This document shows, piece after piece, positions 17,803-23,240 of a stretch of DNA of 64,000 nucleotides. A program made the position numbers and the translations under genes. Below the pieces are notes generated by a model. That model searched no databases. It had not been told where the DNA came from and saw only the letters and a list, made by a program, of their open reading frames with translations. Every line of letters starts with the position of its first letter. Position 1 is the first letter of the stretch. This stretch comes from Pseudooceanicola marinus (GTDB lineage: Bacteria; Pseudomonadota; Alphaproteobacteria; Rhodobacterales; Rhodobacteraceae), in contig NZ_PGTC01000010.1 in NCBI RefSeq assembly GCF_002786295.1, positions 248,001-312,000 of the forward strand, written 5' to 3'.

Positions 17803-17835
17803 TTGTGATCACGCGCGGAAAAGCTGTGATCACAA
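17803..17835 (-). promoter_or_regulatory. Paired GTGATCAC palindromes upstream of sucC
   Basis: On the minus strand the sequence reads TTGTGATCACA, then 12 bases, then GTGATCACAA. The two 8-bp palindromes are 21 bp apart start to start, about two helical turns, and the downstream one ends 108 nt before the sucC ATG. An A-rich stretch (AAGAAAATAGG) follows. The same arrangement precedes sdhC at 23093-23123. Binding protein unknown; inferred operator. Confidence 0.7.
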
Positions 17836-18019
17836 CGCCCGGCAGAGGGGGCGAAAGCGCTGCTCGCCGCGCCCTTCTTGGGGAATCGCGGGGCGTCGAG
17901 ATCGGCGGTTTACCTGTTGAACCTAGCGTCAAAACACCGGTTCGCGCAAATGAGGAGAGCTTTTGCCAAACATCACGCCGCCCGCGCGGGTGCGCGGCTT
18001 TAGGCCAAGGCGAAAAAGA

Positions 18020-18049
18020 AAACGGGCCGCGTAGATGCGCGGCCCGTTT
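18020..18049 (-). terminator. Strong terminator of mdh
   Basis: A perfect 12-bp inverted repeat (AAACGGGCCGCG / CGCGGCCCGTTT) with a 6-base loop lies 33 bases after the mdh stop. On the minus strand it is followed by TTTTCTTTTTCG. It separates mdh from sucC transcription. Confidence 0.85.
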
Positions 18050-18082
18050 CCGAAACTGTGGTTGGTGGTTGGCGTGGCCGGG

Positions 18083-19045
18083 TCAGGCCAGCGAGCTGTC
18101 GATGCCCTTGCAGGCCTCCACGAGACCCTTCACGGCGTCCACGGACTTGTCGAACATCTCCTGCTCTTCCTTGTTGAGCTTGATGTTGACGATCCGCTCG
18201 ATGCCGCCGGCGCCGATGACGGTGGGCACGCCCACGTACATGTCCTTCAGGCCGAACTCGCCGCTGCAGGCGGCGGCGCAGGGCAGGACGCGCTTCTGGT
18301 CCTTGAGGTAGGCCTCGGCCATCTCGATGGCGGAGGTGGCGGGCGCGTAGAAGGCCGAGCCGGTCTTCAGCAGGCCGACGATCTCGGCGCCACCGTCACG
18401 GGTGCGCTGCACGATGGCGTCCAGCTTCTCCTGGGTGGTCCAGCCCATGTCGACCAGGTCGGGCAGCGGGATGCCGGCGACGGTCGAGTAGCGCACGCAG
18501 GGCACCATGGTGTCGCCGTGGCCGCCCAGCACGAAGGCGGTGACGTCCTTCATGGACACGTCGAATTCCACAGACAGGAAGTGGCGGAAGCGGGCGCTGT
18601 CCAGAACGCCGGCCATGCCGCAGACCTTGTTCGCGGGCAGGCCCGAGAACTTCTGCAGGGCCCAGACCATCGCGTCCAGCGGGTTGGTGATGCAGATGAC
18701 GAAGGCATCGGGGGCGTTTTCCTTGATGCCTTCACCCACGGCCTTCATGACCTTCAGGTTGATGCCCAGCAGGTCGTCGCGGCTCATGCCCGGCTTGCGC
18801 GGCACGCCGGCGGTCACGATGCAGACGTCGGCGCCTGCGATGTCCGCATAGGACTGGGTGCCCTTCAGCTTGGCGTCAAAGCCTTCCGAGGGGCCGGATT
18901 CGGCGATGTCGAGCGCCTTGCCCTCGGGGGTGCCTTCCGCGATGTCGAAAAGGACAACGTCACCCAGTTCTTTCAGGGCTGCGAGGTGAGCAAGCGTGCC
19001 ACCGATCTGCCCTGCGCCGATGAGGGCAATCTTGGGTCTGGCCAT
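18083..19045 (-). CDS. mdh: Malate dehydrogenase, LDH-like type
   Basis: NAD-dependent oxidation of malate to oxaloacetate. The 320-residue protein has the NAD motif [14 protein letters not shown] at 5-18, the substrate Arg loop in [15 protein letters not shown] near 80-94, ITNPLDAMV near 116, and the catalytic His in GGHGDTMVP near 174. It belongs to the LDH-like malate dehydrogenases typical of alphaproteobacteria. It takes up malate made both by the TCA cycle and by the neighbouring malyl-CoA thioesterase. Confidence 0.95.
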
Positions 19046-19394
19046 TGTTTCTGTCTCCGGTCCGGTTGAAACGTCGGGGATGGCGTAGGCTCTTTGCTGT
19101 CAGGACGCAAGGGTGCAGGGGCGCGTGACGCGGGTGCCGCTGGTCAAGGAATGGTGAAAAATGACTTGATTTCAAGGCTCTCCCGGCGCGGACGGGGGCA
19201 CCTGTTCAGCCTGTCAGCGCGCGGCCTGCCGCCTCTGCGGGCATGTTAGCGGTCGCAGGCTGCAAGCCATGTCGGGCCGGGGAGGGCGCGCGGCGCGATT
19301 CTTTCCGGGCATGACACAGGCCGGGGCCCACGTTCCGGGTCAGACCTTGCGAGCAGGCCCGTTTCGTCTGCTGCCCGGTCCGGTCATGAGCCGG

Positions 19395-21575: not shown

Positions 21576-21582
21576 GGACGCC

Positions 21583-21786
21583 ATGAAGCTCTATCGTTTC
21601 CTGTCCGAAGACGACACCTCCGCCTTCTGCCACAAGGTTACCGCCGCGCTGAATGCCGGCTGGGCGCTGCATGGCGATCCGACCTACGCCTATGATGCCG
21701 CCAACGGCACCATGCGCTGCGGCCAGGCGGTAGTGAAGGAGGTCGACGGTACCTATTCCCCCGACATAAAGCTTGGAGCCTACTGA
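21583..21786 (+). CDS. DUF1737 small protein
   Basis: A 67-residue protein with the DUF1737 pattern: MKLYRFLSEDDTSAFCHKV at the start, LNAGWALHGDPTYAYD in the middle, and CGQAVVKEV near the end. Function is unknown. It starts 7 bases after the NnrU stop, and mch follows 1 base after its stop, so it is certainly cotranscribed. Confidence 0.85.
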   Translation: MKLYRFLSEDDTSAFCHKVTAALNAGWALHGDPTYAYDAANGTMRCGQAVVKEVDGTYSPDIKLGAY

Positions 21787-21787
21787 G

Positions 21788-22816
21788 ATGAAGACCAACC
21801 CGGGCCGTTTCTTCGAGGATTACACCCTGGGGGAGGTGATCCCCCATGCGGTGCCGCGCACCGTCACGGCGGGGGAGCGCGCGCTGTATCACGCGCTCTA
21901 CCCGGCGCGCGGGGCGCTCTATTCCTCGGACGAATTCGCCCGGGCCTGCGGGCTGCCGGGATCGCCCATCGATGACCTGGCGGCCTTCCACCTGGTCTTC
22001 GGCAAGACGGTGCCGGACATCTCGCTGAACGCTGTGGCCAACCTAGGCTATGCGGAGGGCCGTTGGCTGGCGCCGGTCTGGCCCGGAGACACGCTGACCG
22101 CGCGCTCCACCGTGATCGGGCTGAAGCAGAACTCGAACGGCAAGACCGGCGTGGTCTGGGTGCGCACCGAGGGGCTGAACCAGTACGGTGCGATCATTCT
22201 CAGCTATGTCCGCTGGGTGATGGTGCGCAAGGGCAACCCGGAGGCGCCGGCCCCTGAAACCGTCGTGCCGGAGCTGTCCGACGCGGTGGCCGCCGGTGAT
22301 CTGGCGGTGCCCGAAGGACTGGATTTCACCGGCTACGATTTCGCCCAGGCGGGCGAGCCGCATGCCTGGGGCGACTACGACGTGGGCGAGCGGATCGACC
22401 ACGTGGACGGCTCGACCGTGGAGGAGGCCGAGCACATGCTGGCCACCCGTCTGTGGCAGAACACGGCCAAGGTCCACTTCGACGCCACCTTCCGCCCCGA
22501 TGGCCAGCGCCTGATCTATGGCGGTCACGTGATTTCCATGGCACGGGCCTTGTCCTTCAACGGCTTGGCCAATGCCCAGATGATCGTGGCGCTGAACGGC
22601 GGCGCCCATGCGAATCCCTGTTTCTCGGGCACGACGATCAAGGCCTGGTCCGAGGTGCTGGATCGTGCCGAGACCAGTGCACCGGGCGTGGGCGCCCTGC
22701 GTCTGCGATTGGTTGCGACCTCGGGTGGGGAGCCATTCACCCTGCGGGGCGAGGATGGGAAATACCTGTCGCACGTCCTTCTCGACCTCGATTACTGGGC
22801 GTTGGTGCCGCGTTGA
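21788..22816 (+). CDS. mch: Mesaconyl-CoA hydratase (beta-methylmalyl-CoA dehydratase)
   Basis: Hydrates mesaconyl-CoA to (2R,3S)-beta-methylmalyl-CoA in the ethylmalonyl-CoA pathway. The 342-residue protein is a double hot-dog MaoC-type protein: an N-terminal half with GRFFEDYTLGEVIPHAV and a central PVWPGDTLTARSTVIG, and a C-terminal half with EEAEHMLATRLWQNTAKVHFD. Length and sequence fit the mesaconyl-CoA hydratases of Rhodobacter. ATG at 21788 is used; an in-frame TTG lies at 21773. Location beside mcl2 supports the call. Confidence 0.85.
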   Translation: MKTNPGRFFEDYTLGEVIPHAVPRTVTAGERALYHALYPARGALYSSDEFARACGLPGSPIDDLAAFHLVFGKTVPDISLNAVANLGYAEGRWLAPVWPGDTLTARSTVIGLKQNSNGKTGVVWVRTEGLNQYGAIILSYVRWVMVRKGNPEAPAPETVVPELSDAVAAGDLAVPEGLDFTGYDFAQAGEPHAWGDYDVGERIDHVDGSTVEEAEHMLATRLWQNTAKVHFDATFRPDGQRLIYGGHVISMARALSFNGLANAQMIVALNGGAHANPCFSGTTIKAWSEVLDRAETSAPGVGALRLRLVATSGGEPFTLRGEDGKYLSHVLLDLDYWALVPR

Positions 22817-23240
22817 TCTGTCGGCGCGGGGTGTCGCCCCGAAGGGCGCGACGGCCTTCGGCGAGAGTATTTCGGTCTATCGGATGGGGCAGGGCGTTGC
22901 CATCTGTGGCCTGCAGGCGCGCGCCCGTCTCAGCCGCAACAGGGACGGGGTCCGGGGGGCGTCGCCCACATTATCCGTCAGCCATAAATACTCCGGCGGG
23001 CCGGACCGTCCGGGGCAAAACGCCGGGCCAGGGGCGCAGAATCAAGTCGTAAAACCTAGCAAATCAGTCAGAATTTTGCGTCGCTCATTACGTGATCACA
23101 GCGTCATTTTCCGTGATCACAAGTTGAAAAAGATATGGTTGCTTTCGTCAAATTCTCGGGACCGGACGCCCCGGAGAGGATGACAAGCGCATGCGATCTG
23201 CGTAAACCAGAGACCAAGGGAAATCCGGAAAGGACATGCC
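22817..23240 (+). other. 424-bp gap holding the sdh promoter region
   Basis: Between mch and sdhC. The left part is GC-rich and holds an imperfect hairpin (GTCGCCCC-GAA-GGGCGCGAC, 22833-22852) that may end the mcl2-mch transcript. The right part (23040-23160) is markedly AT-richer and contains the paired palindromes and a TTGAAA hexamer at 23125. No gene seen. Confidence 0.6.
23093..23123 (+). promoter_or_regulatory. Paired GTGATCAC palindromes upstream of sdhC
   Basis: The sequence reads GTGATCACA, 12 bases, GTGATCACAA. The palindromes at 23093-23100 and 23114-23121 are 21 bp apart, and the second box ends 117 nt before the sdhC ATG. A TTGAAAAAG stretch follows immediately. Spacing, orientation and flanking A residues match the site before sucC. 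Inferred operator or activator site; protein unknown. Confidence 0.7.

Follow-up and report, generated by a model that had tools for sequence, protein, structure and literature searches.

Paired palindromes upstream of the suc and sdh operons of Rhodobacteraceae as probable tandem operators of the GntR-family regulator AkgR

Which regulator reads the paired palindromes that precede two tricarboxylic acid (TCA) cycle operons of Pseudooceanicola marinus (Rhodobacteraceae)? The pairs lie in a stretch of 64,000 nucleotides (nt) (RefSeq assembly GCF_002786295.1, contig NZ_PGTC01000010.1, positions 248,001 to 312,000; hereafter the window), one before sucCD-sucAB and one before sdhCDAB, which together span the TCA cycle from 2-oxoglutarate to fumarate (Table 1). 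The genome containing the window is labelled G000, and other G and L labels denote comparison genomes and stretches. We consider it highly likely that the pairs are tandem operators through which AkgR activates both operons, and that akgR represses itself through a single copy of the same site; the regulator that reads the pairs is very probably AkgR, a GntR protein with an FCD sensor domain. The initial annotation of the window had proposed one regulator for two TCA segments, a claim that is now well supported because conserved pairs precede sucC and sdhC, and their presence tracks one GntR gene that carries the same motif, GTGATCAC, in its promoter.

An exact search of the window returned four copies of GTGATCAC and no fifth, as had been counted before, compared with a mean of 1.11 in dinucleotide shuffles of the window, 1 of 100 of which reached four. 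The half-sites of the palindrome abut without a spacer. Recomputed start-to-start spacing was again 21 bp in both the suc and the sdh pair, with 13 bases between the palindromes. The coordinates given in the initial annotation held for the suc pair and were one base too high, in both numbers, for the sdh pair; its distances of 108 and 117 nt to the first ATG became 110 nt (sucC, minus strand) and 120 nt (sdhC) when counted from the end of the proximal palindrome, the earlier values fitting a count from the end of a longer motif. Across the genome of 4,496,514 bases (~4.5 Mb) we found 82 single copies of GTGATCAC and just two instances of GTGATCAC-N13-GTGATCAC, those before sucC and sdhC; random placement of 82 sites would give ~0.0015 pairs at 21 bp. 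The exact sequence TGTGATCACA is present at G000:C10:518064.

The arrangement is conserved in the family. Among 248 family genomes from 247 genera, 223 carried at least one pair (defined as GTGATCAC-N(3-33)-GTGATCAC), and a backward-read control pattern was found in 1. Pairs were collected by exact match and assigned to genes in two sets. The first, comprising the window and 39 pair-bearing stretches from 36 genomes among the matches listed, held 69 pairs (36 before sucC, 31 before sdhC, 1 before sucA and one unassigned at a stretch end). For the second, 40 genomes were picked among those with at least two pairs and searched at 20- and 21-bp spacing only; 70 of 80 pairs were fetched, from 35 genomes, and they divided equally between sucC (35) and sdhC (35). 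Both sets together thus hold 139 pairs, of which 71 precede sucC, 66 precede sdhC and a single one precedes sucA, with the last lying where a stretch ends; the 137 suc and sdh pairs are spaced by 21 bp in 127 cases and by 20 bp in 10. The bases flanking the pairs differ widely among relatives. Absence of the pairs before sucC and sdhC in close relatives, or scattered occurrence without preferred spacing, would have contradicted the initial annotation; instead, the family-wide search found relatives with pairs before both genes, and the spacing preference was sharp. In one stretch (L210, G177:C4:88432-104500) a pair stands before sucA with no SucC match in the 16-kb stretch, and the operator may stay with the head of the operon when sucCD is absent.

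We also searched a draw of 385 genomes from the class, 5 from the family and 380 others, for pairs with spacers of 11-15 bases. Pairs were present in 5/5 family genomes and 6/380 others, and the six outside the family had no SucC or SdhC match within flanks of ~1.5 kb, a search that could miss a distant SdhC. One stretch outside the family, L235 (G393:C189), has at positions 992-1020 a pair with a 13-base spacer directly before a GntR gene whose product is 28-29% identical to AkgR; the motif may be common to a wider GntR group.

Imam et al. (mBio, 2015) reportedly equated RSP_0981 with AkgR and described it as a direct activator. For Rhodobacter sphaeroides, a GntR-family activator, AkgR, has been described with the palindrome GTGATCAC as its motif (PMC6365646), and RSP_0981, a GntR-family protein, is predicted to control sucCD, sdh and sucAB-lpd (PMC4344238). 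The system described here resembles that regulon in its GntR regulator, motif and targets (PMC6365646, PMC4344238): we found GTGATCAC at promoters, sucCD(AB) and sdh as targets and a co-occurring GntR gene. It differs in the strict 21-bp pairs, the phased A/T tracts downstream of them and the single site over the akgR promoter. In the literature searched, the main AkgR paper aside, we found no description of these three features, which may nevertheless be known. Regulator, motif and targets are already in print, and the strict promoter design is possibly new.

The candidate AkgR of this genome is a GntR/FCD protein of 215 residues (G000:C24:42668-43312), one of 21 FCD matches in the genome, and lies above the Pfam cut-offs for both domains (PF00392, 50.1 bits with a cut-off of 27; PF07729, 65 with a cut-off of 24.3). 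We take it as the presumptive orthologue of RSP_0981, and GTGATCAC begins 17 bases upstream of its ATG. Strong AkgR relatives (E ≤ 1e-50) were found in 224 of the 248 family genomes, and gene and pair co-occurred closely: 220 genomes had both, 21 neither, 4 the gene only and 3 the pair only (Fisher p 1.5e-23, without correction for relatedness), with similar tables at gene cut-offs of 1e-40 and 1e-60. Among the four genomes with the gene alone, G040 carries two one-mismatch pairs, and one of these precedes its sucC by ~108 nt; the assemblies of the other three (G122, G155 and G147) yielded no true sucC. When two mismatches were allowed, at least 22 of 25 pairless genomes gave matches, mostly lone and with GC-rich spacers, which we take as noise, G040 excepted. 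In the class draw, where scoring was limited to the top few candidates of each genome, matches at E ≤ 1e-35 occurred in 5/5 family genomes and 5/380 others, the latter five being 35-42% identical and about as distant as an in-genome paralogue (39%); among the candidates scored, strong AkgR relatives were confined to the family.

Shared descent was addressed with a SucC tree of 56 rows, 36 labelled with akgR and 20 without. Most akgR-labelled rows had been fetched for having pairs, and the 36 include G096, where no akgR gene was found. On this tree the distribution of the akgR label takes 9 changes to explain (bootstrap range 7-10, with 3 or more imposed by well-supported branches), that of the sucC pair 10. 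Of the 20 rows without akgR, 19 also lack the pair with one mismatch allowed, the remaining row being G019; all 36 labelled rows have the pair, which is no test given how they were fetched. Independent contrasts, calculated without G096 (3 on strong branches, 9 on all), nearly all pointed in the same direction and never in the opposite one, but their number does not suffice for significance. We conclude that the association between akgR and the pair is strong and that its independent repetition is partly proven. Some akgR-less genomes keep operator bases before sucC (12/16 in G157, 11 in G209 and 9 in G017; most others are at noise level), which is suggestive of decayed pairs in these three. 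The G157 stretch (L304) has its 12/16 bases ~138 nt before sucC, at the expected position, in a genome with no strong AkgR relative.

The akgR promoter itself carries the motif. Of 110 akgR loci, upstream regions could be obtained for 109, which comprise 94 distinct sequences. GTGATCAC was present in 90 of the 94; its first base lay exactly 18 bases beyond that of TTGAC in 81, and it ended 8-12 bases before the start codon in 88. If the spacer is 17 bases long, the palindrome would cover part of the −10 element, and the transcript would begin at the akgR start codon or directly beside it, which would make the akgR message leaderless. Since the single site overlaps the −10 element, AkgR bound there should repress its own gene, suggesting negative autoregulation. 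In one genome a double GTGATCAC with a 5-base spacer (G187:C1:3357949-3357969) stands just upstream of an akgR relative (3357271-3357882).

Downstream of the pairs, the suc and sdh promoters share a further pattern. The initial annotation had noted an A-rich segment after both pairs; it is present, and in relatives it forms part of a wider pattern, although the sdh copy of the window is not periodic on its own. A/T is enriched at about +9, +19, +29, +39 and +49 from the proximal palindrome in both promoters, and the intervening columns are rich in G/C. The second set, independent of the discovery of this periodicity, gave A/T peaks of 0.93, 0.77, 0.59 and 0.91 with troughs of 0.32, 0.22, 0.26 and 0.36 for suc, and peaks of 0.90, 0.61, 0.84 and 0.67 with troughs of 0.46, 0.24, 0.34 and 0.20 for sdh. 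Mean single-sequence power at 9.5-11 bp was 0.154 for suc (n=71) and 0.157 for sdh (n=66) compared with 0.039 in shuffles, whereas at like distance it was 0.050 for mdh (n=35) and 0.043 for akgR (n=94), controls that are poorer in A/T (0.36 and 0.33, against 0.57 for suc and 0.50 for sdh). Correlation between the suc and sdh profiles peaked without any offset (0.71), but some correlation (0.42) was also seen in a short stretch upstream of the pair, where single-sequence power was 0.077 (shuffles 0.058). Periodicity was also lower in sucC promoters without akgR and pair (0.059, n=19) than in those with the pair (0.111, n=37; p 0.003, uncorrected for relatedness).

GTGAC, which is −35-like, occurs at +66 to +68 in 28 of 35 second-set sdh promoters. 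In suc promoters a TTT-rich element stands at about +55 in the column profile, on which the position of the −35 element mainly rests because a simple promoter scan gave scattered positions. These conserved −35-like elements stand 55-68 bp downstream of the pair, which led us to abandon an arrangement with the pair directly next to the −35 box. Assuming the usual distances, the pair centres would fall near −86 and −107 (suc) and −98 and −119 (sdh). The A/T tracts fit the usual positions of the RNA polymerase alpha-subunit tails. Tentatively, the suc and sdh promoters may share one unit, two AkgR operators exactly two turns apart followed by A/T tracts that recur every ~10 bp, in register with the operator, as far as the −35 box. 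In such a unit, AkgR, with or without the alpha-subunit tails, would fold the phased segment by bending or wrapping into one activation complex, thereby allowing a regulator bound ~85-120 bp upstream to reach polymerase, and loss of akgR would be accompanied by loss of the operators and apparently of much of the phasing. The role of the tracts remains presumptive, and the segments of the window speak against phasing, with no periodicity for sdh (0.028) and a modest one for suc (0.088); the rows compared are, moreover, related.

Taken together, AkgR would occupy each pair as two adjacent dimers separated by two helical turns, ~85-120 bp upstream of the points where suc and sdh transcription begins, and from there activate the TCA-cycle genes for the steps from 2-oxoglutarate to fumarate. 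The 21-bp spacing would suit dimers that share a helical face, as the initial annotation had supposed. Phased A/T minor grooves may bend the DNA or take the alpha-subunit tails, and AkgR at the akgR −10 element would complete the circuit by negative autoregulation. Several points weigh against this account. The genomes are related, and just three contrasts fall on well-supported branches (sign test p 0.25); the 1e-50 gene cut-off was chosen after the data had been seen; G019, G096 (77% complete) and G114 have pairs and no strong AkgR relative was found in them; the genome of the window also encodes a paralogue (G000:C13:79437-80042) that shares 39% identity with the candidate AkgR, and the palindrome may be recognized by further GntR proteins; and we infer the binding of AkgR at the pairs, and activation there, from sequence. 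Three further family genomes in the class draw hold similar matches (37-40%).

It is quite unlikely that another GntR protein, such as this paralogue, is the reader of the pairs, alone or together with AkgR. The genome does hold the paralogue and a total of 21 FCD matches, the pair of L235 precedes its own GntR gene, and GTGATCAC has also been proposed as the motif of a Pseudomonas simiae GntR protein 32% identical to AkgR (PMC6365646). However, strong AkgR relatives track the pairs very closely, in a comparison that covered AkgR alone, and akgR has the motif in its own promoter. Another reading is that AkgR binds the pairs and represses, or switches between repression and activation by ligand. 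Many GntR proteins are repressors, and the position of the sites relative to the promoter is a predicted one, but −35-like elements 55-68 bp downstream of the pair are typical of activator sites, the site that overlaps a −10 element is the one at akgR, and AkgR is described as an activator (PMC6365646); we regard repression, or ligand-dependent switching, at the pairs as unlikely. Related genomes share sequence by descent and the pairs were collected by exact match, which leaves chance or functionless inheritance to be weighed. Its probability is negligible: two non-homologous promoters have the same architecture, 137 of 139 pairs precede sucC or sdhC within widely differing flanks, and the backward-read pattern is nearly absent. 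Location, spacing and number refute this reading.

Two known regulators invite comparison. The CRP consensus is TGTGA-N6-TCACA, and activator sites of this type are helically spaced upstream of −35. The pairs resemble tandem CRP-type sites in their palindromic TGTGA/TCACA halves and helical spacing, but their half-sites abut with no 6-bp spacer and AkgR belongs to another protein family, and CRP was rejected. CceR (RSP_1663), of the LacI family, is predicted to regulate the sdh and mdh genes of R. sphaeroides through the motif GTT-N6-8-AAC (PMC4344238). It shares sdh as a predicted target, but GTGATCAC lacks this inverted repeat and CceR was ruled out as the reader of the pair. CceR-like sites occur downstream of the pair in a minority of relatives, in 4 of 36 suc promoters (shuffles 1.3) and 7 of 31 sdh promoters (shuffles 1.2). 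The initial annotation was thus right that the palindrome is not a CRP site, and the regulator that it did not recognize is very probably AkgR (PMC6365646, PMC4344238).

Table 1. Operator pairs, putative promoter elements and genes of the suc and sdh groups in the window
Feature	Position	Strand	Remark
Distal palindrome GTGATCAC, suc pair	17826..17833	-	
Proximal palindrome GTGATCAC, suc pair	17805..17812	-	110 nt before sucC ATG
Suc pair to putative −35 segment	17758..17804	-	A/T tracts every ~10 bp in relatives; own power 0.088 vs shuffles 0.039
Putative weak −35-like element, suc, TTCATC	17752..17757	-	TTTAAC-like in relatives
Distal palindrome GTGATCAC, sdh pair	23092..23099	+	
Proximal palindrome GTGATCAC, sdh pair	23113..23120	+	120 nt before sdhC ATG
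Sdh pair to putative −35 segment	23121..23179	+	A/T tracts every ~10 bp in relatives; own power 0.028, not above shuffles
Putative −35-like element, sdh, ATGACA	23180..23185	+	GTGACA in relatives
sucC	16501..17694	-	product recognised from sequence
sucD	15612..16496	-	product recognised from sequence
sucA, 2-oxoglutarate dehydrogenase E1	11824..14901	-	product recognised from sequence; start uncertain
sucB	10302..11819	-	product recognised from sequence
sdhC	23241..23630	+	product recognised from sequence
sdhD	23645..24049	+	predicted start inside longer open reading frame 23489-24049; Sdh_cyt match
sdhA	24065..25870	+	product recognised from sequence
sdhB	27117..27896	+	product recognised from sequence; predicted start

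Other genes lie among and between these groups. A DUF805 gene (14891-15514, minus strand) stands between sucD and sucA, and an open reading frame with a polysaccharide pyruvyl transferase domain (25901-27034; PF04230, 48.7 bits), odd for an sdh operon, between sdhA and sdhB. Between the mdh-suc and sdh groups, the segment 20104-22816 holds an HpcH/HpaI-type lyase gene and a mesaconyl-CoA-hydratase-like gene, which we take to belong, possibly, to the ethylmalonyl-CoA pathway.

The likely regulator of a control point of central metabolism can thus be named from sequence across a large bacterial family, together with a rigid promoter design that is directly testable. If that design is as proposed, moving an operator by half a turn or placing the A/T tracts out of phase should abolish activation. 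The suggested wiring is one in which the activator of two operons represses its own gene, and in which gene and sites have been lost together in several lineages.
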